A stretch of DNA of 64,000 nucleotides from Mesodorylaimus sp. YZB2_4 (Eukaryota; Nematoda; Enoplea; Dorylaimida; Dorylaimidae): contig JASANH010000105.1 in the NCBI GenBank assembly GCA_030248295.1, positions 1-64,000 of the forward strand. The letters run 5' to 3'. Position 1 is the stretch's first letter. Every line of letters starts with the position of its first letter. Position numbers and translations under genes: made by a program. A model generated the notes under the pieces. That model was given only the letters and a program-made list of their open reading frames with translations, was not told the DNA's origin and searched no databases. Of the stretch, positions 2,105-61,265 are shown one piece after another.

Positions 2105-2202
2105 CGGTATTACGCTGGTTAGAGAAGTGTGTCTTGCATAGATGCTCCCTTGTCGATCGTCTGCTATGCTGGCATCTACTGTATCGCACGTGTGTCTCTC
2201 AC

Positions 2203-2210
2203 TATATAAG
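2203..2210 (+). promoter_or_regulatory. TATA box for the Polinton ATPase gene
   Basis: TATATAAG lies about 80 bp upstream of the ATG at 2286. Transcription from about 25-30 bp downstream would exclude the upstream in-frame ATG at 2142 and make 2286 the first usable start. Confidence 0.5.
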
Positions 2211-2285
2211 ATCGTTTTGTTCTTCAATCTTTGTTCATTCCTGTGCATTCAAGTGTGTTGGGAAGTACTTCTAAGAATAACTGCG

Positions 2286-2942
2286 ATGGATACCACCTGG
2301 CTGCATAGTTTTTTCTGTACTGTCATTGGTGCCACAAGAGCTGGAAAAAGCACATTCGTCAGGAAATTAATCGAGCACAGATTCGAAACGATTTCGCCTC
2401 CCCCAAAACACGTATACTGGTGCTATTATGAGAGTCAACCTATGTATGCAGACCTAAACCGTGATCCTGGAATCACATTTATTGAAGGTTTTCCTGATTT
2501 TTCAAGCATCAGCAGAGGTTCTTTGGTGGTGATTGACGACCTTATGATGGAGAGCAAAAGTAAAAGCAACAACGCAATGTTAGTTGCGCTAGCCACGCGT
2601 GGTTGCCATCACTGGGGTATTTCATGCATCATGTTAACCCAGAATGCGTTTTTCGGAGATCGTACTTCACGCATAAATAGCCAGTATTTGGTCCTGATGA
2701 AAAACCCAGCTGACAAGCTCCAGGTGGCTACTTTGGCGAGACAGTTATTTCCAGACAACATAAAATACTTTCAACAAAGCTATGAAGATGCAACAGGAGA
2801 ACCGCATGGATATCTTTTTGTTGATTTGACACAGGCATGTCCCGATCACGCTCGCCTTCGTTCAAAAATCTTTCCTGGAGAGCCAACTGTTGTGTATACA
2901 CCTATAAATCACAGGGCTTGGAAATGCAGCAATCAGTTTTAG
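2286..2942 (+). CDS. Polinton DNA-packaging ATPase (FtsK/HerA, A32-like)
   Basis: The protein has 218 residues from the ATG at 2286. The frame is open back to 2142, but the TATA box at 2203 favours the later start. The Walker A motif GATRAGKST is at residues 15-23. A Walker B strand (LVVIDDLMME) lies about 65 residues later, followed by a conserved TQN segment. This is the pattern of genome-packaging ATPases of the FtsK-HerA superfamily found in Polintons and related viruses, where the enzyme pumps DNA into the capsid. The frame is intact, unlike several neighbours. It is the first gene of the relic and precedes the small basic protein gene by about 10 bp. Confidence 0.8.
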   Translation: MDTTWLHSFFCTVIGATRAGKSTFVRKLIEHRFETISPPPKHVYWCYYESQPMYADLNRDPGITFIEGFPDFSSISRGSLVVIDDLMMESKSKSNNAMLVALATRGCHHWGISCIMLTQNAFFGDRTSRINSQYLVLMKNPADKLQVATLARQLFPDNIKYFQQSYEDATGEPHGYLFVDLTQACPDHARLRSKIFPGEPTVVYTPINHRAWKCSNQF

Positions 2943-2954
2943 AATGGTACTCAT

Positions 2955-3312
2955 ATGAGGATGGTTGGTACTCGATTACAACGAAACTTGAAGCTACTTC
3001 GATACCTCAAGAAGGCTAAAAGACAAAAGAGGAAAACGTTTTTGAAAGGTGCTCCAAAGGACTTTAATCCTTTGTATTTGCGACTGCGCAAACAACATTC
3101 TACGTGGCAACATTCATCTAAAGACCAACGACAGAAAGGCTTTACATCGTCATAGAATTGCTCTGCGAACTTTGGCACAACGAAAGGCCTCTGTTGAACA
3201 AAAACGTAAACTGCTTATTCAGAAAGGTGGATTTCTTCCATTTTTGCTTGCGCCAATTATAAGTGCGGCTGGAGGATTAATAGGTAGTTTGTTGCGACCT
3301 TCTGAAAACTAA
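2955..3312 (+). pseudogene. Polinton small basic core-like protein, frame-shifted
   Basis: Two overlapping frames, 2955-3155 and 3049-3312, make up one ancestral gene. The first gives a Lys/Arg-rich N-terminus ending in a LKGAP motif. The second gives a stretch of the type CxCAxNILRGN, a basic middle (residues rich in K, R, H) and a C-terminal QKGGFLPFLLAPI hydrophobic segment. That arrangement is common to a small conserved protein of Polintons and adintoviruses. The two halves are in different frames, with the shift at about 3050-3080, so the gene is broken unless the shift is programmed or an assembly error. The role is inferred to be a DNA-condensing or membrane-active virion component. 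Confidence 0.55.
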
Positions 3313-3320
3313 AGATAAGA

Positions 3321-4100
3321 ATGATGCATTACAAGAAAATGATGCTGGTGCCAGCGTCTAACGAAGATTACCTCAGGAAAATGCTCCCTGCAGCTGTACC
3401 ACAACTAGCTGGCTTAGATGCGGAAATTCGTGCAATTCTAGACAACAACACAGACGCTCCTGATGTCAAACTACTTAATTACAATCAAGTGCTACGAAGG
3501 TACATGAAATTAAAGGAAGATGCATTTGGTGCACCTCTTCCTCATTCTCATAGAAGAGATGACGAGAGAGGGAATGCGCCTCCAGAAGCAGGACAGCTCG
3601 AACCAGACAGAGTAACTTTACCGTTTTCAGACGAAACCATATTAGAAGGTATCCCAACTAGAAATTTGAAGTCTGCACGCATATTGCTCAGCTATCTAAA
3701 GCGAAATAGTGAAATATCTTGGGCAAAAAATGGGGAAATGATCGCACATGGCGAGCGCTACCCAAACACAAACCTAGTAGATCTCGTGCACGACTTTAGT
3801 CGCATGAGGAAATCTGTTGCACATGCTGCTGGGGCTATCTTCCTCGCTAGGGCCTTAAAAAGGCAAAATGTGCCAAGAGAAAGCATTGGAAACCCAGCTC
3901 GCTGGAAACTGATCGCAGAAAATCAAAGGGCACCGTTTGAAGCGACCAGAATACTTGCGACAGCTAGTCCAGTCGGAGATAGGAATCAGGACTATATGCT
4001 GCTCGGCGAGGCGGTAGGGACATCAACGCCGTATAGGAGTACATGGGAAGAACAAGCTGATGACGACAACGATGATAATGATCCCACATTATACAGCTAA
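3321..4100 (+). CDS. conserved Polinton protein of unknown function
   Basis: This is an intact 259-codon frame, 9 bp after the stop of the preceding gene. The N-terminal 75 residues (LVPASNEDYL, then a motif around LLNYNQVLRRY) look like a conserved protein that sits beside the integrase in Polintons. The C-terminal half is rich in Arg and Asp and ends in an acidic run. No enzyme motif is visible. Membership in the element rests mainly on position, spacing and partial resemblance. The function is unknown. Confidence 0.5.
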   Translation: MMHYKKMMLVPASNEDYLRKMLPAAVPQLAGLDAEIRAILDNNTDAPDVKLLNYNQVLRRYMKLKEDAFGAPLPHSHRRDDERGNAPPEAGQLEPDRVTLPFSDETILEGIPTRNLKSARILLSYLKRNSEISWAKNGEMIAHGERYPNTNLVDLVHDFSRMRKSVAHAAGAIFLARALKRQNVPRESIGNPARWKLIAENQRAPFEATRILATASPVGDRNQDYMLLGEAVGTSTPYRSTWEEQADDDNDDNDPTLYS

Positions 4101-4156
4101 AAATGTGTATATAAATTCTTTGCAGTTAGCGTTTGGTTATACTAGGTTGTACGACG

Positions 4157-5238
4157 ATGACAGACCAAGTCCTACGTGGCATTTATTTGAATGTTGATCA
4201 CCCAGCTTGTTTTTCAAGTGTTAACTCTCTCTATAAGGCTGCTAAACAACAGTTACCAGGATTAAAACGCAGCGAAGTACAAGAGTGGTTGTCGCAGCAT
4301 GAAAGTTACACATTGCATAAGCCCGCCCGCAAAAAATTTATTAGAAATCCAGTGCTAAGTTGTGGAATGGACGCACTGTGGGAAATGGACTTGGTGGATC
4401 TATCGAAATTCAAAAAGCATAATAATGGATACGCATATCTGTTTCAGATAATTGATGTGGGATCCCGTTATGGATTTAGTGTGCCCTTACGTACGAAGAG
4501 GCCTGCAGAGTTCGCTAAAGCATTTGAGAAACTTCTCAAATCAACAGCACGTAAACCGGCTGTGTGCACGTTCGATGCGGGCAAAGAATTCACTGGGGCT
4601 CAATTTAAAAACATGCTGAAGAAGCACAAAATCTTTGCTTACGTGTCCAGGAGTGATATGAAATGCTCAATAGTAGAACGCTGGAATCGAACTTTAAAAA
4701 CAAGAATGTGGAAATATTTTACGCACAAGAATACTCGCAAGTGGGTAGATGTGCTACAGAAGTTAGTTAAAGCCTACAATTATTCAAAGCATCGCACGAT
4801 TGGGTGTAAACCAGCAGAAGTAACCCCGGATCGAGCTCGCAACATAAATGATCAGATAATTCAGCAAGCAGAAAACAAAGTAAAAAATCCGTTGCGCTTT
4901 AAGTATAACATAGGTGACCACGTTAGAATAAGTAAAAGCAAGGGATATTTGAAAAAGGTTTTGAGCCAAATTGGACCAGGGAGGTTTTTATTATCACGTC
5001 ACGAAAAGCCATTCCAGGGCCTGTATACAAACTTCAAGACATGAATAGCGAGCTAGTAGAAGGCATATTTTATGAGGCCCAAATTCAAAAAGTCGCAGAG
5101 CCGCAAACTTATAAGATAGAAAAAATCTTGCGTTGGAGACGGGTAGCTGGAGGAAAGAGGCAAGCATTAGTTCGCTTTCTCGGGTATGGTCCTGAGTTTG
5201 ATCAATGGATAAACAAGGAAAACATAACAAAATTGTGA
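4157..5238 (+). pseudogene. Polinton integrase with chromodomain, one frame shift
   Basis: The frame opening at ATG 4157 encodes a DDE integrase. The acidic residues sit in MDLVD, TFDAGKEF and IVERWN (about residues 78, 140 and 174 from this start). The C-terminal part is in another frame that ends at 5238. It contains the chromodomain-like sequence RWRRVAGGKRQALVRFLGY followed by a W that fits the aromatic cage. The shift lies near 4935-4950. Upstream of the shift the plus-two frame matches the family, and downstream the plus-one frame does. The enzyme would cut and join element ends to the host target with a 6-bp stagger. The chromodomain may steer insertion to chromatin. The break makes this copy inactive if it is real. 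Confidence 0.8.
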
Positions 5239-5265
5239 GCAGTAGCTCGTATAAAAAGCCCTGGA

Positions 5266-5619
5266 TTGACGGATGTCTCTCAGTCGCAAGTAATGGGGGA
5301 CCCACGACTGGGTAAGGATGTTTTTGGGGCCAATTACGAAGGCAGTTATAATCGCACTGAAAGTGAAGATCGTGGTACGAATTTGGGAAACAGTGTATAC
5401 TGGAAAATCTGGGTAAGTCGAGTCCCGAAGCAAGAAATCGTGTACTTTTGCCAGATTACTCTCGTCTACATTGTTATCCTTGCTAGTATTGGTAATTTGA
5501 CATTGCACAAAGACGAGGGTAAAGTTTGGATAGCGCTTTTGAGTGCTTGTCTGGGATACATTTTGCCAAGTCCAACATTGAAGCACTTACCAAGCGTTCA
5601 TCAGGAAAATGACAAGTGA
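5266..5619 (+). CDS. Polinton small membrane protein
   Basis: An intact 117-codon frame. A polar N-terminal half leads to the motif YWKIWVSRVPKQEI, followed by two hydrophobic segments (about residues 59-77 and 88-102). This pattern recurs as a small gene next to the integrase in Polintons and adintoviruses. Its function is unknown. A role in the virion membrane or in assembly is a guess. Its stop overlaps the start of the next gene by 11 bp, as expected for a compact viral-type gene block. Confidence 0.5.
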   Translation: MTDVSQSQVMGDPRLGKDVFGANYEGSYNRTESEDRGTNLGNSVYWKIWVSRVPKQEIVYFCQITLVYIVILASIGNLTLHKDEGKVWIALLSACLGYILPSPTLKHLPSVHQENDK

Positions 5620-6403
5620 AGATTTTTACCTCACACTTCCCAGCAATATTACTCGTGATGCTAGCGCATCAGCATTCCGAGTTCCTTTACCAAGGATGGT
5701 TAGACTTACTGGAGATTGGGAAGTTGCGCTAGTCGAATTAATATATCCATATTCCTGGTATAATATAGACGTGCCTGAAGGACGTGTTTACTTGAGTTTA
5801 GAAACCACAACGGAATTCATTTTTGTGCTGGTAGGTAAGCTGAAAAATGGACACTACAGTTCCATCGACGACTTATTACTAGCGCTGTCTGAAAGCCTGT
5901 CTGAAGAATATAAGGATTATGTAATTTTTGCTTATGATAAGAGAGCCAACCACGTTGAAATATTACTGAAAGACCCTGTGGTGGCCCTACATATGCCACA
6001 CTTTTTGTATTACATGCTTGGTTATACCGGCGGCAACCACTCCAGTGGTGAGGCAACAACGTCACCACCTAAAATTCGTAAAGACCAAGGATCAGCCCCG
6101 CATCCACCAGACATGCGGTGCGGTCTTGGTGTTTTTTATGTATACTGCGATATTACAGAACATAGTGTAGTCGGAAACAAATTGGCACCGCTGCTACGTG
6201 AAGTGGCTGTGGAAGGAAAGTTTGGGGATATTATAGACAAGATTTTTGTACACCCACATTATGTGCCTGTGCTGAAAAAAGAATTCGACACGATCGAAAT
6301 TGCCATAAAAACGGACCAGAATAGAAACCTTGCTCTTCAATACGGAAAAACACTTGCTAAGCTGCACTTTAGACGCAGAAAGGCCAGTGCATTTTTCATA
6401 TAA
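5609..6403 (+). CDS. Polinton PY-type structural protein (penton/minor capsid candidate)
   Basis: An intact 264-codon frame. The N-terminus has the motif DFYLTLPSN, then PRMVRLTGDWEVALVELIYP, which is highly characteristic of a protein shared by Polintons and adintoviruses. The C-terminal part includes DIxEHSVVGNKLAPLLR and a final strand-rich segment. In published analyses of Polinton capsids one jelly-roll protein was proposed to form the vertex (penton). Assigning this gene to that role is my inference from its position before the major capsid gene. Confidence 0.55.
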   Translation: MTSEDFYLTLPSNITRDASASAFRVPLPRMVRLTGDWEVALVELIYPYSWYNIDVPEGRVYLSLETTTEFIFVLVGKLKNGHYSSIDDLLLALSESLSEEYKDYVIFAYDKRANHVEILLKDPVVALHMPHFLYYMLGYTGGNHSSGEATTSPPKIRKDQGSAPHPPDMRCGLGVFYVYCDITEHSVVGNKLAPLLREVAVEGKFGDIIDKIFVHPHYVPVLKKEFDTIEIAIKTDQNRNLALQYGKTLAKLHFRRRKASAFFI

Positions 6404-6476
6404 GTATTGTCATATGACATTATTTGTTTATTCTGTGCAATATCTTACCGCAGACTAGTTGCTCCTGTAATAAGCA

Positions 6477-6937
6477 ATGTATTACGAAAATCCAAATTTT
6501 TGGCTTTCCTATTACAAACAGCAGGCCATTCAAAGTGGTCATGGTTTAGACGGTTTTAGGGGAGTACCATACCAGCGTGGAGTGGACTGGGCAGTTTCTT
6601 CAAATCCTTATTCCGAGTTGCTGTACCAGTTCTTAAACGAGCAGCAACAGCTACAGCGAGAAGGGCCGGAAAACAAGCTTTGAGTGCAGTTGGTCAGATA
6701 GCTGCAGATGTAACCGGTGGTCATGATCTACGAGACTCGATTCGAAATAGAGGCAAACAAGCTGTTTCAAATGTCCTGCACGAAACAGCTGATGCTATTC
6801 AAAACGGGAATGGGCTTGGCGTAAGGCCTGGTGGAGGTAGAGTAAAGACGCCTATAAAACGTCGTCGAAACGCAAAGAAAAACAGTGCAAAGAAACATCG
6901 CCTCAGTGTCAAGACAGATATTTTTGGCCGATACTAA
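6477..6937 (+). pseudogene. Polinton basic virion protein, frame-shifted
   Basis: The frame 6477-6683 starts with a Tyr/Trp-rich N-terminus and the motif VPYQRG, then loses its resemblance to the family. The second frame (open from about 6595 to 6937) carries an amphipathic Ala/Lys/Arg stretch and ends in a polybasic segment with RRRNAKK. The ancestral gene must have joined the two, so a single-base shift occurred near 6585-6600. The protein resembles small basic proteins of Polinton and adintovirus particles. An X/mu-like DNA-binding role is an inference. Confidence 0.5.
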
Positions 6938-6939
6938 AT

Positions 6940-7473
6940 ATGAACCGTTTCGTGGACTCGAATTCAACGCCGAGCACGAAATCTGAACTAGATCTTTTCT
7001 CCATTCCAGCAACGCAGGTCGCCATTAAGCGGGCGTACGACGATGTAATTTACCCGCCCAACCCGCTAACTAACGATGGACCATACGAATTCAGGATCAA
7101 CCCAGACCACGGATTCTTAAACCTTGCTAAACATAGGATTTATTTTCAATTGCGCATTGTAAGACCAGACGGCACTGCTTTAGTGGCAGCTGGTGACAAT
7201 GCTGACCCTCAAGTCGCCCCGATAAATGCCATAGCGAAAACATTTTTCAAGCAAGTGAAGCTTTTTATGAATAGCAAGCTGATATATGATTCTGGAGACA
7301 AATACCATTATCGCGCATTCTTAGAGACAAAGCTGAATTATAATTTAGAAGCGAAGCAAGCTCACCTCAGTGCTTGCCTGTATTCTCATGAGTATGGTGA
7401 TATTGATGCAAACGATAATGAGGACTTTGTTAGCAGAGCGGCTCTATTTGCGGGGAGCGCAAATGCGCATTAG
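6940..7473 (+). pseudogene. Polinton major capsid protein, 3'-truncated
   Basis: The frame begins 3 bp after the preceding gene. It contains QVAIKRAYDDVIYP and the segment FRINPDHGFLNLAKHRIYF, recognisable as the N-terminal jelly-roll of the family often annotated F54H12.2-like, which is the Polinton major capsid protein. Complete members are several hundred residues long, whereas this frame ends after 177. Resemblance stops near 7460 and the next sequence is unrelated. The copy was therefore cut by deletion or insertion and cannot form a capsid. Confidence 0.7.
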
Positions 7474-9900: not shown

Positions 9901-10072
9901 GGGGTGAACGCCTAGCGGGTTAAGGCGTCTGCCTCTCACGCTGGGTGCGCACTTACAGCGGAGGGTTCGACTCCAGCCTCGGTATAAAATAATTGTCAAA
10001 TATGTGTTCCTTAGCTCTCAAGTGCGCCTAATGGTGCTTGGCTATGGATAAAGTGTCACATGACATGACATG
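9901..10072 (+). repeat. tRNA-derived SINE, family 1, copy 2
   Basis: This is a plus-strand copy of the element at 241-430. The head has CCTAGCGGGTTAAGG and the B-box GGTTCGACTCC. The same body follows (tatgtgttccttagc, then tggtgcttggctatgg), with a short tail of (ATGAC) units at about 10058-10072. Agreement with copy 1 is roughly 90 percent by eye. Confidence 0.8.
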
Positions 10073-10899
10073 CCCTGTTGAGCCAGAACTTGTCACAAGC
10101 ATCACTGTGCTTCCACTGCTTGAAGTTGAGCAGCTATGTGACAACATTAAGGTCCGTATGGCCCTTGTGTTCAAGACATCATGATTTTCGACTTTTACGC
10201 AACGACTCACGCATCTAAATTTATCCAAAAAAAAATCTGCGAGTAAAATATATCGCACTAAAGTACAACGGTGCAGTGACGCTATCTCTGTACAGGTCCA
10301 GGAAGCCCTCCTAACTTCTTAACCGCATAGCTCATACCTCATACCGCAGGGACTGTAACTGATCTGCGTAATACGTTTGGGTTATTATCACTATAGGGAG
10401 TGACGTGGTGCTTTTGCTCCAGGCCAAAAACCAAGACAAGCCCAACCAAGTCTTCCAACTTACTGTTAGTCCACGGCTGAAATCACCCAGACAGGTGCCG
10501 TTCCCACCAGCCAGCTGCGTGCAAAAAATAGACTGCTAAACGAGCCTACACATCTGTGCAGCAATGCAGGCGCTGACTCCGAGACAATGGAGTGCGTGAG
10601 TTGCTCAGACACCACTAGCCCAAAGTGGTGTCCATCCTCCCCATAAGAGGCGATAAGTGGGGCAGCGAGGAATCAAAGCACACAACCTCACGAGTGAAGT
10701 TAGTTAAACTGCCAAAACCCAGCAGCACCAACGCTGAAAATGAGCCATCTATCGCACTGATGTCATGGACGCATTTGGCTGAATCTCATTAGGCCTGACG
10801 TGTGCTTTTGATGCCTGCTTTGTCTGTCTGATCCAGTTTCTGTGCCTTGACCTAACTCGTATATAACGGGCAGGGGTGTAAGAGTGATGTCGAAAAACA

Positions 10900-13635: not shown

Positions 13636-14671
13636 CATGGCTATACTTAAGGAATTCTCAGGCTCTCCTAACCACGCTCAAACCAGTTCTCTAACACGGA
13701 AAGAACTGGCCCATGGGCTAGCATGCAAGGAACAGGAGGGTTCAAATTTGGAATTCGAATGCTATCGCGGAAATAATAGTTTCATTGAATTCCTCGCATC
13801 AGACTTAACGTTCTAACAAACTATCATGTTTTACATTTTTTGTCAAAAAATTTGAATTTGGCGCTCTGACCTTGATGAGCAGGCAAGCAGACCTTTACAT
13901 CGCCGCAAACTGGAAGTCTTACCGAATCAAATCAATAACTGATGTCCTACTCAACAGACCACCAGAATATGCTGGCTAGAGAAAGAGAAGATTCTTTGTG
14001 TTAACATTGCTGACTATCGTCTTTATTTTATCAGTGAAACCGCTACCTTACTGATATTTCTCTGTAGCCAGAGCGCCAAAGCACCTGCGTGCGCATCTTA
14101 CATCTAGCGGGCATCATACGCGCCAGATGATAACGAGTGCAGAGCGCTTTACTTCAGAAGTTTTAAGCGAGAAAAGCTGCGTGCCGCGGCAATTGGTTTT
14201 GTACTGACGTCGCTCTAAAGCTTTCTTCAGTTTAGAGGCATTACTGTTACGAACTGAAACTACATAAACAACCGCGCACGGGGAAATTATCAACAGTAAT
14301 TCTTTTCACAATTGGCTTTGTACTGCTCTGTGCACATGGGTACAGAGTGTTGGAAGAACTACGTAACCGGATACGCATGCTGCAGTAAATTTCGCGCTTG
14401 TAGCAGCTTATGGCAAGCGCCCAGACAAGAACCTCCGTGCCGCCAAATTCAAATTTTTTGATTAAAAAAAATGTAAAACATGATAGTTTGTTAGAAGGTC
14501 AAGTCTGATGCGAGGAATTCAATGAAACTATTATTTCCGCGATAGCATTCGAATTCCAAATTTGAACCCTCCTGTTCCTTGCATGCTAGCCCATGGGCCA
14601 GTTCTTTCCGTGTTAGAGAACTGGTTTGAGCGTGGTTAGGAGAGCCTGAGAATTCCTTAAGTATAGCCATG
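13636..14671. mobile_element. 1,036-bp inverted-repeat transposon with 8-bp TSD
   Basis: The two arms, 13636-13863 and 14441-14671, are near-perfect inverted copies of about 230 bp around a 577-bp unique loop. The outer ends read CATGGCTATAC inward from both sides. The flanks carry an exact 8-bp direct repeat, tacaacac, at 13628-13635 and 14672-14679. An 8-bp duplication fits hAT-type or P-type transposases. No transposase frame is present, so it is non-autonomous. It sits about 220 bp beyond the stop codon of the minus-strand GPCR gene. The small frames in the arms are shadows of the inverted repeat. Confidence 0.85.
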
Positions 14672-55939: not shown

Positions 55940-55945
55940 AACTTC
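55940..55945. other. target-site duplication, left (aacttc)
   Basis: Exact 6-bp copy of 61260-61265. It borders the foldback element on the left. Confidence 0.85.
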
Positions 55946-55978
55946 AGTAGTTATAGTGTGCGTCGCGCGCCTGCAGCT

Positions 55979-56001
55979 AGCTGGGGGCGAAGCCCCCAGC
56001 T
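55979..56001. repeat. subterminal palindrome, left arm
   Basis: agctgggggc, gaa, gcccccagct: a 10-bp stem with a 3-base loop, 33 bp from the element tip. The right arm has the same stem without the loop at 61207-61226. Confidence 0.8.
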
Positions 56002-56278
56002 TACCATACCAGCTTATTATCACCCCTAAGCCACTGACCACTAGCTGAAAGCCCAAGCCCCGCAGGGCCTTAATTAGCTTACCACCCTAATAATCGTCAG
56101 TCCTTTGAGACCCTTCTTATCACTGTGAGCCCCCTTATCAGTCATTAGCTGAACCTTATCACTATCTAGTCATTAGCTGAACCATATCATCGACTAGTCA
56201 GCAAGTCAAGCTCCAATCTTCTTATCATATCACAATAGCGATGATCCATAATCAGTATTTTCTGGAAAAGTGAAAAGT

Positions 56279-56353
56279 TTTGCGCCCGCTAAGAATCGAA
56301 CTCGCCTCGCCCGAGTGGAAGTCGAAGGTTCTACCAGTTGCGCCACGGGGGTA
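56279..56353 (-). tRNA. tRNA-Gly(UCC)-like Pol III unit, left arm
   Basis: Read on the minus strand: A-box TGGCGCAACTGG, anticodon-type loop CTTCCAC with TCC in anticodon position, B-box GAGTTCGATTC, then GCGGGCGCA and, a few bases on, AACTTTTCACTTTT as a Pol III stop. The acceptor and D stems pair poorly, so it is probably tRNA-like or a pseudogene rather than a working tRNA. Transcription would run outward, towards the left tip of the element. Confidence 0.55.
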
Positions 56354-56446
56354 GTTTAGAAAGAGGGTCGAGAGTGCACAGTGAAGACAATGGATTATTT
56401 GAACGCGCAGACATACATGTCATCGAAACCTACAGCGGAGCATTCA

Positions 56447-57194
56447 GAGCTGCTCGTTTAGTGACAAGAGCAGCTCCTCCTTGGTGGAGAGCAGCTCGGA
56501 GCTGCTCATTTTGTTGCAGGAGCAGCTCCTCCTTGGTGGGGAGCAGCTCGGAGCTGCTCATTTTGTGGCAGGAGCAGTTCCTCCTTGGTGGGGAGCAGCT
56601 CGGAGCTGCTCATTTTGTTGCAGGAGCAGCTCCTCCTTGGTGGGGAGCAGCTCGGAGCTGCTCATTTTGTGGCAGGAGCAGTTCCTCCTTGGTGGGGAGC
56701 AGCTCGGAGCTGCTCGTTTTGTTGCAGGAGCAGCTCCTCCTTGGTGGGAAGCAGCTCGGAGCTGCTCATTTTGTTGCAGGAGCAGTTCCTCTTTGGTGGG
56801 GAGCAGCTCGGAGCTGCTCATTTTGTGGCAGGAGCAGTTCCTCCTTGGTGGGGAGCAGCTCGGAGCTGCTCGTTTTGTTGCAGGAGCAGCTCCTCCTTGG
56901 TGGGAAGCAGCTCGGAGCTGCTCATTTTGTTGCAGGAGCAGTTCCTCTTTGGTGGGGAGCAGCTCGGAGCTGCTCATTTTGTGGCAGGAGCAGCTCCTCC
57001 TTGGTGGGGAGCAGCTCGGAGCTGCTCATTTAGTAACAAGAGCAGCTCCTCCTTGGTGGGAAGCAGCTCGGAGCTGCTCATTTTGTTGCAGGAGCAGTTC
57101 CTCTTTGGTGGAGAGCTGCGCAGAGTTGCTCATTTCTTGGCAAGAGCAGGTCCTCCTTGGTGGGAACTGTTTGGATCTGCTCATTTTATGGCAG
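56447..57194. repeat. 52-bp tandem array, left arm (12 regular + 2 degenerate units)
   Basis: Twelve units of exactly 52 bp run from 56447 to 57070, followed by two diverged units. Each unit contains the palindromes gagcagctcggagctgctc and aggagcagctcct, joined by tccttggtggg and attttgt. Because 52 is not a multiple of three and the unit has no stop on this strand, all three frames stay open. The resulting 52-residue-period peptides rich in SSSLVGSSSELLIL are by-products of composition. Confidence 0.9.
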
Positions 57195-57380
57195 AGCAGC
57201 ACTTTGGTAGCAGGAGTAGCTCCTACTTTGTGGGGACCTTTCCATTTTATCAGGTGAGCGGCAAATGTGAGAGCATACACCATGCCAGTTTCCTACAAAT
57301 CCAGTCAGGGCGTTCACTTTGTACCTTAGGGGGCTTTACTTCATGGTCCATGTTGCACTTATAAGCCTACAACCCCGCTC

Positions 57381-57462
57381 ATATTAGCGGGGGAGCTGCT
57401 CATGTTAGCGGGGGAGCAGCTCATGTTAGCGGGGAGCAGCTCATGTTAGCGGTGGAGCAATC
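57381..57462. repeat. 21-bp tandem repeat, left arm (4 units)
   Basis: Four copies of gctcatgttagcgggggagc with small changes (20-21 bp). The inverted counterpart in the right arm has about six copies at 58330-58450. This is the innermost block of the terminal repeats. Confidence 0.85.
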
Positions 57463-57529
57463 ACTGCCCTGATGCTTCCATATATTCTTCCTCATATGAA
57501 TGTGAAGAGAGGGCTAACTGCCAAGTGAC

Positions 57530-57538
57530 GATAAAAGG
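57530..57538 (+). promoter_or_regulatory. possible TATA box of the cargo gene
   Basis: GATAAAAGG lies about 50 bp upstream of the first ATG of the zinc-finger gene at 57587. It is a weak match. Confidence 0.35.
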
Positions 57539-57586
57539 CAACAGTTTTGTTGCATCTGCCAGTTTCATATTTTTTCGAGTTGGCGA

Positions 57587-58228
57587 ATGGTTCGGTTTGG
57601 ATTACTCTCGAAAATGGTCAACGATAACGATAGCTCGTCTGGCGAAAATGGCGACGATGAATGCACAAAATGTGACAAGACATTTTGTTCGAAATATTCA
57701 TTGAGGCGTCACATGAAATCTGTTCATGGAAAGCGAGCGCGGACCAGTACTGTTGATGGTAGCAAGGATGGTGATAGCGAAGAAGCGGATGGCGGCGGAG
57801 ACAATGACGATGACGATGAAATAGAACCATCCAATAAAATTTGGCGGACATTCTTGAAACGGATCTTGCGTAATTGGAGGGAAGATGATGATTTTCAAAT
57901 GCCACAAACGGAAGATGATTTTCTAAACCTCAAAGATCAAGTCCGAGAGGAGTTGTACAGTCAAACGGTCAAACTTTTGAACGACTACAATGCACTGGTC
58001 GATTCTCCAATATATAAAAAGATTCGAGTCACTGAAGATCGCCTATTACAATTGATGGATGACGAAGATAGTGATGATCAGCAAGAAGCCTTCCAAACGG
58101 CCTTCGATCAGAGGAAAACATTGCTATTGAATTTTTTGAATGACAACCTAGATGTAGTTGAAAATTATGCGGAAACATCAGACAGTGGAGAGGAAGATGG
58201 AGAAGAAGAAGAAGAGGACAGTGATTAA
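57587..58228 (+). CDS. single C2H2 zinc-finger protein, cargo of the foldback element
   Basis: An intact 213-codon frame fills the single-copy loop. One classical finger is present (C26-x2-C29-x12-H42-x4-H47; CTKCDKTFCSKYSLRRHMKSVH), followed by a basic patch and an acidic Asp/Glu/Gly run (about residues 60-78). A helical central region follows (IWRTFLKRILRNW to LLNFLNDNLDVVENY), with a very acidic tail of Glu and Asp. No transposase, integrase or helicase motif is visible. A second ATG at 57614 is possible. A TATA-like box precedes and AATAAA follows, so it looks like a complete transcription unit. A single finger with acidic regions suggests a chromatin or end-binding protein, which is an inference. 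Confidence 0.75.
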   Translation: MVRFGLLSKMVNDNDSSSGENGDDECTKCDKTFCSKYSLRRHMKSVHGKRARTSTVDGSKDGDSEEADGGGDNDDDDEIEPSNKIWRTFLKRILRNWREDDDFQMPQTEDDFLNLKDQVREELYSQTVKLLNDYNALVDSPIYKKIRVTEDRLLQLMDDEDSDDQQEAFQTAFDQRKTLLLNFLNDNLDVVENYAETSDSGEEDGEEEEEDSD

Positions 58229-58312
58229 TCCACCCAACTGATTTTATAAAACTACTGTGCACAAACATTAATACCTTGATATTCAATCATGATCAATATT
58301 TATGTTTCTTTT

Positions 58313-58318
58313 AATAAA
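58313..58318 (+). terminator. poly-A signal of the cargo gene
   Basis: AATAAA, 85 bp after the zinc-finger stop codon and just before the right arm begins. Confidence 0.5.
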
Positions 58319-58329
58319 TAGCTACTCAC

Positions 58330-58450
58330 CTGCTAACATAAGCAGCTCCCCGCTAACATGAGCAGCTACCCCGCTAACATGAGCAGCTCCCCGCTAACAT
58401 GAGCAGCTCCCCCGCTAACATGAGCAGCTCCCCCGCTAACATGAGCGGGG
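58330..58450. repeat. 21-bp tandem repeat, right arm (about 6 units)
   Basis: Copies of ctaacatgagcagctccccc, the reverse complement of the block at 57381-57462. The copy number differs between arms (about 6 against 4). Confidence 0.85.
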
Positions 58451-58640
58451 TTGTAGGCTTATAGGTGCAACATGGACCATGAAGTAAAGCCCCCTAAGGT
58501 ACAAAGTGAACGCCCTGACTGGATTTGTAGGAAACTGGCATGGTGTATGCTCTCACATTTGCCGCTCACCTGATAAAATGGAAAGGTCCCCACAAAGTAG
58601 GAGCTACTCCTGCTACCAAAGTGCTGCTCTGCCATAAAAT

Positions 58641-60725
58641 GAGCAGATCCAAACAGTTCCCACCAAGGAGGACCTGCTCTTGCCAAGAAATGAGCAACTC
58701 TGCGCAGCTCTCCACCAAAGAGGAACTGCTCCTGCAACAAAATGAGCAGCTCCGAGCTGCTTCCCACCAAGGAGGAGCTGCTCTTGTCACTAAATGAGCA
58801 GCTCCGAGCTGCTCCCCACCAAGGAGGAGCTGCTCCTGCCACAAAATGAGCAGCTCCGAGCTGCTCCCCACCAAGGAGGAACTGCTCCTGCCACAAAATG
58901 AGCAGCTCCGAGCTGCTCCTCACCAAGGAGGAGCTGCTCCTGCAACAAAATGAGCAGCTCCGAGCTGCTCCTCACCAAGGAGGAGCTGCTCCTGCAACAA
59001 AATGAGCAGCTCCGAGCTGCTCCTCACCAAGGAGGAGCTGCTCCTGCAACAAAATGAGCAGCTCCGAGCTGCTCCTCACCAAGGAGGAGCTGCTCCTGCC
59101 ACAAAATGAGCAGCTCCGAGCTGCTCCCCACCAAGGAGGAGCTGCTCCTGCAACAAAATGAGCAGCTCCGAGCTGCTCCTCACCAAGGAGGAGCTGCTCC
59201 TGCCACAAAATGAGCAGCTCCGAGCTGCTCCCCACCAAGGAGGAGCTGCTCCTGCAACAAAATGAGCAGCTCCGAGCTGCTCCTCACCAAGGAGGAGCTG
59301 CTCCTGCCACAAAATGAGCAGCTCCGAGCTGCTCCCCACCAAGGAGGAGCTGCTCCTGCAACAAAATGAGCAGCTCCGAGCTGATCCCCACCAAGGAGGA
59401 GCTGCTCCTGCCACAAAATGAGCAGCTCCGAGCTGCTTCCCACCAAGGAGGAGCTGCTCTTGTCACTAAATGAGCAGCTCCGAGCTGCTCCCCACCAAGG
59501 AGGAGCTGCTCCTGCCACAAAATGAGCAGCTCTGCGCAGCTCTCCACCAAAGAGGAACTGCTCCTGCAACAAAATGAGCAGCTCCGAGCTGCTTCCCACC
59601 AAGGAGGAGCTGCTCTTGTCACTAAATGAGCAGCTCCGAGCTGCTCCCCACCAAGGAGGAGCTGCTCCTGCCACAAAATGAGCAGCTCCGAGCTGCTCCC
59701 CACCAAGGAGGAACTGCTCCTGCCACAAAATGAGCAGCTCCGAGCTGCTCCTCACCAAGGAGGAGCTGCTCCTGCAACAAAATGAGCAGCTCCGAGCTGC
59801 TCCTCACCAAGGAGGAGCTGCTCCTGCAACAAAATGAGCAGCTCCGAGCTGCTCCTCACCAAGGAGGAGCTGCTCCTGCAACAAAATGAGCAGCTCCGAG
59901 CTGCTCCTCACCAAGGAGGAGCTGCTCCTGCCACAAAATGAGCAGCTCCGAGCTGCTCCCCACCAAGGAGGAGCTGCTCCTGCAACAAAATGAGCAGCTC
60001 CGAGCTGCTCCTCACCAAGGAGGAGCTGCTCCTGCCACAAAATGAGCAGCTCCCAGCTGCTCCCCACCAAGGAGGAGCTGCTCCTGCAACAAAATGAGCA
60101 GCTCCGAGCTGCTCCTCACCAAGGAGGAGCTGCTCCTGCCACAAAATGAGCAGCTCCGAGCTGCTCCCCACCAAGGAGGAGCTGCTCCTGCAACAAAATG
60201 AGCAGCTCCGAGCTGCTCCTCACCAAGGAGGAGCTGCTCCTGCCACAAAATGAGCAGCTCCGAGCTGCTCCCCACCAAAGAGGAACTGCTCCTGCAACAA
60301 AATGAGCAGCTCCGAGCTGCTTCCCACCAAGGAGGAGCTGCTCTTGTCACTAAATGAGCAGCTCCGAGCTGATCCCCACCAAGGAGGAGCTGCTCCTGCC
60401 ACAAAATGAGCAGCTCCGAGCTGCTCCCCACCAAGGAGGAACTGCTCCTGCCACAAAATGAGCAGCTCCGAGCTGCTCCCCACCAAGGAGGAGCTGCTCC
60501 TGCAACAAAATGAGCAGCTCCGAGCTGCTCCTCACCAAGGAGGAGCTGCTCCTGCAACAAAATGAGCAGCTCCGAGCTGCTCCTCACCAAGGAGGAGCTG
60601 CTCCTGCCACAAAATGAGCAGCTCCGAGCTGCTCCCCACCAAGGAGGAGCTGCTCCTGCAACAAAATGAGCAGCTCCGAGCTGCTCTCCACCAAGGAGTA
60701 GCTGCTCTTGTCACTAAACGAGCAG
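58641..60725. repeat. 52-bp tandem array, right arm (38 regular + 2 degenerate units)
   Basis: From 58744 to 60719 there are 38 units, with unit starts checked at several points and always at multiples of 52. Two diverged units precede them at 58641 and 58692. The same two palindromes as in the left arm occur in each unit. Variant units (tgcttcccacc with cttgtcactaaat) recur at 58744, 59420, 59576 and 60304, which reveals internal block duplications. The minus-strand frames are open for the same composition reason as on the left. Confidence 0.9.
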
Positions 60726-60821
60726 CTCTGAATGCTCCGCTGTAGGTTTCGATGACATGTATGTCTGCGCGTTCAAATAATCCATTGCCTTCACTGTGCA
60801 CACTCGACCCTCTTTCTAAAC

Positions 60822-60894
60822 TGCCCCCATGGCGCAACTGGTAGAACTTTCGACTTCCAATCGGGCGAGATGAGTTCGAATCTTGCCGGGCGCA
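60822..60894 (+). tRNA. tRNA-Gly(UCC)-like Pol III unit, right arm
   Basis: A-box TGGCGCAACTGG at 60830-60841, anticodon-type loop CTTCCAA at 60854-60860 with TCC at 60856-60858, and B-box GAGTTCGAATC at 60872-60882. The ends tgccccc and gggcgca pair six of seven. TTTT starts at 60899, immediately after the unit. The D stem pairs poorly, so aminoacylation is doubtful. Transcription would run outward to the right tip. Confidence 0.55.
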
Positions 60895-60991
60895 AAACTT
60901 TTCACTTTTCTAAAATCATTGCTCATCAATGGTTGATTAAACACTTGTGATATGATAAGAAGATTGGAGCTTGACTTGCTGACTGGTCGAT

Positions 60992-61075
60992 GATAAGGTT
61001 CAGCTAATGACTAGATAGTGATAAGGTTCAGCTAACGACTAGATATTGATAAGGTTCAGCTAATGACTGATAAGG
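60992..61075. repeat. 28-bp direct repeats in right arm (3 copies)
   Basis: tgataaggttcagctaatga with ctagata occurs three times in a row. The left arm has two copies at about 56130-56190. Confidence 0.8.
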
Positions 61076-61206
61076 GGGCTCACAGTGATAAGAAGGGCCT
61101 CAAGGGACTGACGATTATTAGGGTTGTAAGCTAATTAAGGCCCTGCGGGGCTTGGGCTTTCAGCTAGTGGTCAGTGGCTTAGGGGTGATAATAAGCTGGT
61201 ATGGTA

Positions 61207-61226
61207 AGCTGGGGGCGCCCCCAGCT
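61207..61226. repeat. subterminal perfect palindrome, right arm
   Basis: agctgggggcgcccccagct, a perfect 20-bp palindrome 33 bp from the right tip. Confidence 0.85.
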
Positions 61227-61259
61227 AGCTGCGGGCGCGCGACGCACACTATAACTACT

Positions 61260-61265
61260 AACTTC
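61260..61265. other. target-site duplication, right (aacttc)
   Basis: Exact partner of 55940-55945. Confidence 0.85.

Follow-up and report, generated by a model that had tools for sequence, protein, structure and literature searches.

The window studied here, namely the first 64 kb (64,000 nucleotides) of contig C196 of the nematode Mesodorylaimus sp. YZB2_4, whose genome of 145 Mb is distributed over 1067 contigs cited below in the same manner, contains a foldback element that carries its own zinc-finger gene. As discussed below, this element is very probably a gene-bearing, non-autonomous derivative of Polinton/Maverick elements, or a satellite of them, with foldback architecture, and is presumably moved in trans by Polintons of the same genome. 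The element occupies 5,314 bp at positions 55946-61259, as defined by its target-site duplications, its inverted arms and the starts of genome-wide matches, and lies between exact 6-bp repeats, aacttc, read in the sequence at 55940-55945 and 61260-61265. Both tips consist of the same 17-mer, AGTAGTTATAGTGTGCG, on the plus strand at 55946-55962 and inverted on the minus strand at 61243-61259. If up to three mismatches are allowed, this 17-mer has two sites in the window, which are the two element ends, compared with 0.11 expected, and none of 100 shuffles gave two sites. The left border is also seen in a genome search with the 161-bp left end, in which the best 40 of 108 candidates were scored: with the query excluded, 20 of the 39 scored matches start exactly at 55946, 15 start 1-5 bases earlier, and four start later.

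The two arms are built from the same modules in the same order, inverted relative to each other and with unequal array lengths. The outermost module, which we call the Polinton-type end for the reason described later, covers 55946-56402 on the plus strand and 60773-61259 on the minus strand; its inner limit is where the match to Polinton terminal inverted repeats (TIRs) ends, at left-arm position 457 for nine of ten Polinton-type arms and 454 for the tenth, and at right-arm position 487 for nine and 484 for the tenth. Repeat detection finds 28-bp repeats within this end (2.2 copies at 56140-56200, minus strand; 3.0 copies at 60991-61072, plus strand), farther in, past the tRNA-like unit, a 52-bp array of 14.5 copies in the left arm (56447-57200, plus strand) and 40.5 copies in the right arm (58623-60728, minus strand), and, innermost, 21-bp repeats (4.0 copies at 57377-57459, plus strand; 5.9 copies at 58325-58446, minus strand). 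Between the last two lies a unique block of 176 bp, recognized by arm comparison and genome matches (57201-57376, plus strand; 58447-58622, minus strand). Arm-to-arm identity is 93-96% across 0.9-1.0 kb in inverted orientation, and reaches 99% in the unique block. Long, internally repetitive inverted arms around a small loop are what defines the foldback structural class, and the element has this architecture. The initial annotation of this DNA had proposed the exact borders with aacttc on both sides and the same tip at both ends, an ordered module set common to both arms, and a single intact gene in the loop without a transposase of its own; the coordinates, the 17-mer search and the reading frames agree with all of these.

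The loop gene lies at 57587-58228 on the plus strand and is described from the list of open reading frames (ORFs), a domain scan, genome matches, a structure model of low confidence and its pattern of variation. It encodes a protein of 213 amino acids with one C2H2 finger (E = 5.3e-6), stretches of acidic residues and a C-terminal part predicted to be helical; the AlphaFold model is poor (mean predicted local distance difference test score 48.9), with a helical C-terminal half. Longer open frames of the element (up to 259 codons) traverse the left 52-bp array. The 213-amino-acid ORF is the sole coding content of the loop, and the set expected for an autonomous Polinton (integrase, the DNA polymerase PolB, ATPase, protease and capsid) is absent from it. 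The gene has 54 matches in the genome, of which 23 span nearly the whole protein at 93-100% identity. Because the pooled ratio of non-synonymous to synonymous polymorphism (pN/pS) over 25 copies is 0.39 (codon bootstrap 0.24-0.64, a rough interval as copy pairs are non-independent), sequence variation demonstrates that the private protein was constrained during the spread of the family. Variants present in at least two copies comprise 8 synonymous and 6 non-synonymous changes, the corresponding values for singletons are 30.5 and 57.5, and four of the 25 copies have in-frame stops. No homologue of the protein was found at E <= 10 among 104 word-sharing candidates, nor any relative in viral contigs. 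Derivation of the gene from the Polinton integrase ORF was rejected, as the two gave no significant alignment. Probably, the zinc-finger protein binds DNA of the element or of Polintons and aids spread of the element.

The window element is a member of a dispersed, multicopy insertion family in the Mesodorylaimus sp. YZB2_4 genome. The tip pattern matches 99 genomic sites at up to one mismatch compared with 16 for its reversed control (the tip at C678 was missed by this final pattern and was taken from a first version of it), and matches to the unique block number at least 40, the best 40 of 76 candidates having been scored. The initial annotation had counted a lack of other genomic copies with the same tips as an argument against its own reading, and this argument fails because the tips do recur in other copies. 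Duplications were examined in 17 copies with two facing tips. Eleven of these have exact 6-bp duplications, all different (the window copy and those at C12, C104, C127, C11, C250, C23, C37, C413, C48 and C218), and that at C271 has a 6-bp duplication with one mismatch. The nine copies with both an exact duplication and a full-length gene are 3.4-5.3 kb in size. When the flanks of the window copy, and likewise those of the C12 copy, were joined and used to search for an empty site, occupied loci only were found, plus one 42-bp match. The copy at C218 (L033, C218:67413-68363) is a 0.95-kb member resembling a miniature inverted-repeat transposable element; it lacks a gene, contains a single tRNA-like unit and an expansion of the 28-bp repeats, and has tgcatg as its exact 6-bp duplication.

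What, then, are the ends of this element? The outer 457-487 bp of the window arms, which contain both the 28-bp repeats and the tRNA-like unit, match Polinton-type TIRs of the same genome. Of 53 family arms, 12 run on into a Polinton TIR past the foldback boundary, and all ten tested among these match the window arms at 73-90% and stop matching at a common boundary, the match for C509 ending three bases earlier than those of the other nine. Therefore, the foldback element consists of Polinton-type ends to which private interior modules are joined; several tip-bearing loci are without the 52-bp array. Beyond about 628 bp, eight of the 12 arms follow one continuation, that of the integrase side, two follow a second one (C269 and C868), and two follow neither, so that the two continuations would roughly fit the two sides of one TIR of about 625 bp. 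On the first side, an inward-reading integrase ORF starts 1.93-2.06 kb inside the tip at C724, C678, C750, C569 and C222, and at five further contigs (C585, C426, C47, C730 and C967) integrase is found inward 1.4-6.3 kb inside; in total, the integrase reads inward at no more than 6.3 kb from the tip in 10 of the 14 contigs with both tip and integrase matches. This integrase ORF has two pieces, which align at 36% and 37% to a window ORF at 4133-5044, which is itself a Pfam rve integrase (E = 9.2e-14). On the second side, C269 has the same TIR and then, about 7 kb inside, pieces of DNA_pol_B_2 (PF03175) with E = 9.8e-13 and 3.5e-5, the latter falling under the Pfam cut-off, and its polymerase also matches a PHROG DNA polymerase (E = 1.2e-8). 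Pieces of both genes are seen at C426, in which the distance inward from a tip with one mismatch is 1.4 kb for the integrase piece and 6.3 kb for the polymerase piece. The tips at C724, C678, C750, C569, C222 and C269 are 8-13 kb from the contig border that they face.

The tips themselves have a peculiar pattern of variation. In seven two-armed copies with the gene, the two 190-bp tips of one copy are 0.979-1.000 identical with a mean of 0.996 (the copy at C287 is to be discounted here because its contig is palindromic); the mean identity between copies is 0.909 (21 pairs), and the private gene is 0.963-0.997 identical among the same copies. Since tips are nearly identical in pairs and vary between copies despite a nearly constant gene, the ends seem to have been exchanged with other elements and re-copied in pairs. 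Within-copy and between-copy identities are 0.960 and 0.868 for the tRNA-like unit, 0.988 and 0.969 for the next 73 bp inward, and 0.948 and 0.860 for the unique block (six copies); as these have no clear gradient, the idea that homogenisation of the arms fades inward was dropped. A tree was made from 240 bp of 51 of the 53 arms (25 foldback, 12 Polinton and 14 unassigned), leaving out C158, which was wrongly cut, and the damaged right end of C141. Foldback and Polinton ends are interleaved in it: a single foldback clade costs 81.6 log-likelihood units (approximately unbiased test, p = 0.0011), and the well-supported branches alone need at least four changes of label. Recombination within the 240 bp would disturb this tree, not the conclusion that ends are shared.

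Several observations do not sit easily with a Polinton satellite. At four of the 14 contigs (C937, C450, C675 and C397, the last judged by hand), tip and integrase are apart or otherwise oriented. The integrase pieces themselves have no Pfam match and owe their identity to similarity to the window rve ORF, and in the copy that was read they sit in two separate ORFs. The link to a polymerase consists of C269 plus the weaker C426; C868 shares the continuation of C269 and has no polymerase match, and the polymerase piece of C269 is identical at four places without a listed tip. No two-ended Polinton was found on one contig, and hence no 6-bp duplication of a Polinton was seen. For a conserved ORF lying 4.7-5.65 kb inward in the Polinton, searches of Pfam, PHROG and PDB, with a profile made from 6 of 13 available sequences, gave no match, and viral contigs gave no relative; it might conceivably encode a capsid protein, a label that is not adopted here. 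Retrotransposon-type integrase pieces occur at two loci with these ends, C456 and the second tip of C569, and are taken as nested retrotransposon insertions. In the tip tree, the foldback label is partly clustered, with 13 changes compared with 17.4 in shuffles (10 of 500 shuffles have as few); part of this clustering comes from copies that are represented by both arms. Finally, five of the 17 two-tipped copies have no duplication: at C141, one tip is damaged; at C336, C397 and C733, the tips differ between the two ends, and these copies resemble recombinants; and the copy at C287 (L015, C287:89968-95280) lies in a palindromic contig whose flanks are reverse-complementary at 504 of 505 positions, which reflects either a mistake in assembly or a genuine inverted duplication. 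As for the retrotransposon-type pieces, those at C456 are a weak rve match and a Tf2-1-like SH3 match, and that at C569 is Integrase_H2C2 with E = 2.1e-9 (L019 2172-3002, minus strand; L026 2173-2994, plus strand).

Nevertheless, the outer ends are matched by Polinton ends of this genome, and the element therefore probably travels as a passenger of Polintons. Polintons have AGT...ACT tips and make 6-bp duplications, and the agreement of the present tips and duplications with this rule supports membership. By ends and duplication, the element would thus be placed as a non-autonomous Polinton member, with mobilisation supposed to proceed as follows. Polinton integrase would recognise the ends of the foldback element and act in trans. 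One end might be replaced when the element recombines with a Polinton or some other element, and the new end might then be copied to the opposite arm. Two routes for the copying can be postulated, namely gene conversion from arm to arm, and protein-primed replication by Polinton PolB in which the ends pair as a panhandle; replication of this kind is established for adenovirus, and our data fit both routes alike. It might also be imagined that the element is a small linear genome, which is integrated by Polinton integrase, replicated by PolB via panhandle ends and perhaps packaged in Polinton capsids, and whose own zinc-finger gene acts on the helper or on the arrays. We offer this fuller picture tentatively and consider it rather doubtful; if true, panhandle replication keeps the two tips identical and lets the element borrow the ends of its helper.

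The strongest competitor accepts the same satellite and explains the paired tips solely by gene conversion or ectopic recombination of chromosomal copies, without any protein-primed or panhandle replication, and we regard its chances as evenly balanced. Chimeras with unlike tips and without duplications do exist (C336, C397 and C733), little speaks against it, and the lack of a clear inward gradient of identity favours neither mechanism. Galileo, a foldback element of another superfamily, also has TIRs that are 98-100% identical within a copy, as well as chimeric copies (PMC3573991). A different possibility is that the element belongs to a foldback superfamily in its own right, with a transposase of its own encoded elsewhere, and that its ends were taken up by Polintons or swapped with theirs, so that the resemblance is secondary. 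Tips are exchanged between both groups, so that the sequences do not tell in which direction the transfer went, and many copies are gene-bearing foldbacks. Three observations oppose it: in the interiors that were read, where the Pfam scan covered ORFs of interest, no integrase-type genes were noticed apart from that of Polintons and the retrotransposon-type pieces; the Polinton arms keep their TIR past the foldback boundary with two continuations, as is expected if the TIR is theirs; and the tips and 6-bp duplications fit Polintons by the rule mentioned above. We therefore hold this possibility to be improbable. A Dada- or IS3EU-type element, both types having been named for comparison in the initial annotation, is very improbable indeed: Dada also makes 6-7-bp duplications, and is rejected since the foldback element has long arms and a different duplicated target in every copy with an exact duplication, while Dada targets small-RNA genes and Dada-U6 and Dada-U1 are described without TIRs in the cited part of its description (PMC3706591). 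An assembled inverted duplication of one locus, against which the initial annotation had already preferred an insertion, has a precedent in the palindromic contig of the C287 copy and is practically negligible for the window copy, whose arms differ in array units (14.5 and 40.5) and whose flanks are unique and not inverted, with 11 copies having independent exact duplications.

Assignment to the known foldback types was also considered. FB/Mutator foldbacks were rejected for the length of the duplication (6 bp versus 8-10 bp), and no Mutator-type gene was noticed in the interior ORF lists, a part of which was scanned against Pfam. Galileo and the P superfamily, in which the duplication is 7 bp, were rejected in the same way, no P-type gene having been noticed in these partly scanned lists. 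Thus, the view of the initial annotation that the duplication length fits neither FB nor Galileo was correct. Its suggestion of a possible new foldback family holds in part: architecture and cargo would be new, while the outer 457-487 bp point to transposition chemistry of Polinton type and not to that of an orphan superfamily.

It is useful to compare the element with systems described elsewhere. It is similar to Polintons in having its terminal 457-487 bp and tips in common with elements of the same genome bearing rve-type integrase and DNA_pol_B_2, and in its 6-bp duplication, as is the rule for Polintons. It differs from them in its private 52-bp and 21-bp arrays and zinc-finger gene, in that no integrase, PolB, ATPase or capsid gene was seen in it, and in its size of 3.4-5.3 kb; Polintons typically measure 15-25 kb and encode a retroviral-like integrase together with a PolB of the protein-primed type (PMC6431247). 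Foldback elements have mostly been placed in the Mutator superfamily with few exceptions (PMC4079207). Tm1 of root-knot nematodes, a Mutator/Foldback element, likewise has foldback arms with variable arrays and one terminal type across members with a histone hairpin motif, MITE-like members and transposase-bearing members, but has 9-bp duplications, a Phantom-like (Mutator) transposase and two TIRs averaging 93% identity (PMC3169594). Tetris of Drosophila virilis is an apparently non-autonomous foldback whose outermost TIR is in common with DAIBAM, and it differs in its 8-10-bp duplications, its assignment to Mutator and the absence of a conserved ORF in the cited account (PMC4079207). These two are the best parallels, both being of Mutator type. 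Galileo resembles our element in its long repetitive TIRs, in their near identity within a copy and in its chimeric copies, and differs in having a P-superfamily transposase (PMC3573991). Transpovirons and Tlr are also small elements of the virophage-Polinton network, and transpovirons encode a zinc-ribbon protein (PMC3671162); in contrast to our element, no foldback arms are mentioned for them in the cited parts of PMC3671162 and PMC4028283, and transpovirons are plasmids of giant viruses. Tlr was once proposed to be a non-autonomous Polinton derivative, a view that PMC4028283 disputes.

If foldback architecture is indeed based on Polintons here, it can also evolve on elements that have an integrase of retroviral type and a protein-primed polymerase, and Polintons, many of which have capsid-like proteins (PMC6431247), would gain a gene-bearing satellite. 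The pattern of paired tips can be used to test, at the sequence level, how the ends of Polintons are copied.

The tRNA-like unit is part of the Polinton-type end that the element shares with Polintons, and in each arm it is directed outward. In the right arm, ARAGORN calls it as tRNA-Gly(TCC)-like at 60822-60895 on the plus strand, where it has blocks similar to A and B boxes and is followed by T runs; the unit of the left arm (56280-56353, minus strand) was mapped by hand from the right-arm unit, without an ARAGORN call. Among the 53 family arms, 15 receive such a call. The blocks that resemble A and B boxes are well kept across 29 aligned arms. A role as a translatable tRNA is unsupported, with 15 of 53 arms called and a between-copy identity of the unit (0.868) that is not above those of its neighbours (0.909 and 0.969). 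The unit might possibly serve as a start for RNA polymerase III.

The interiors of the Polintons with these ends have two further features. An open frame of 235 codons without a Pfam match lies directly inside the TIR (L018 4375-5079, minus strand; also L021 and L024), and is retained at C397 in a derivative of 2.1 kb with two tips. In several other copies, the N-terminal part of the integrase ORF (L018 2536-3648, minus strand, and homologues) is matched in two pieces, as an intron would give, around what, read by eye, is a possible C2H2 finger.

Elsewhere in the window, remains of another Polinton lineage are found at 2142-7473. They include the rve integrase ORF at 4133-5044 used above, an ORF at 2142-2942 with a weak AAA_14 match (E = 0.0025, under the cut-off), and further ORFs without assignment at 3321, 5609 and 6940. 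These remains are flanked by an inverted pair of 177-bp sequences (251-427 and 9901-10077), which have a tRNA-like part as judged by eye and are perhaps two copies of a short interspersed element. A separate inverted-repeat element has 215-nt arms at 13636-13850 and 14457-14671, which are 97% complementary and 606 nt apart.

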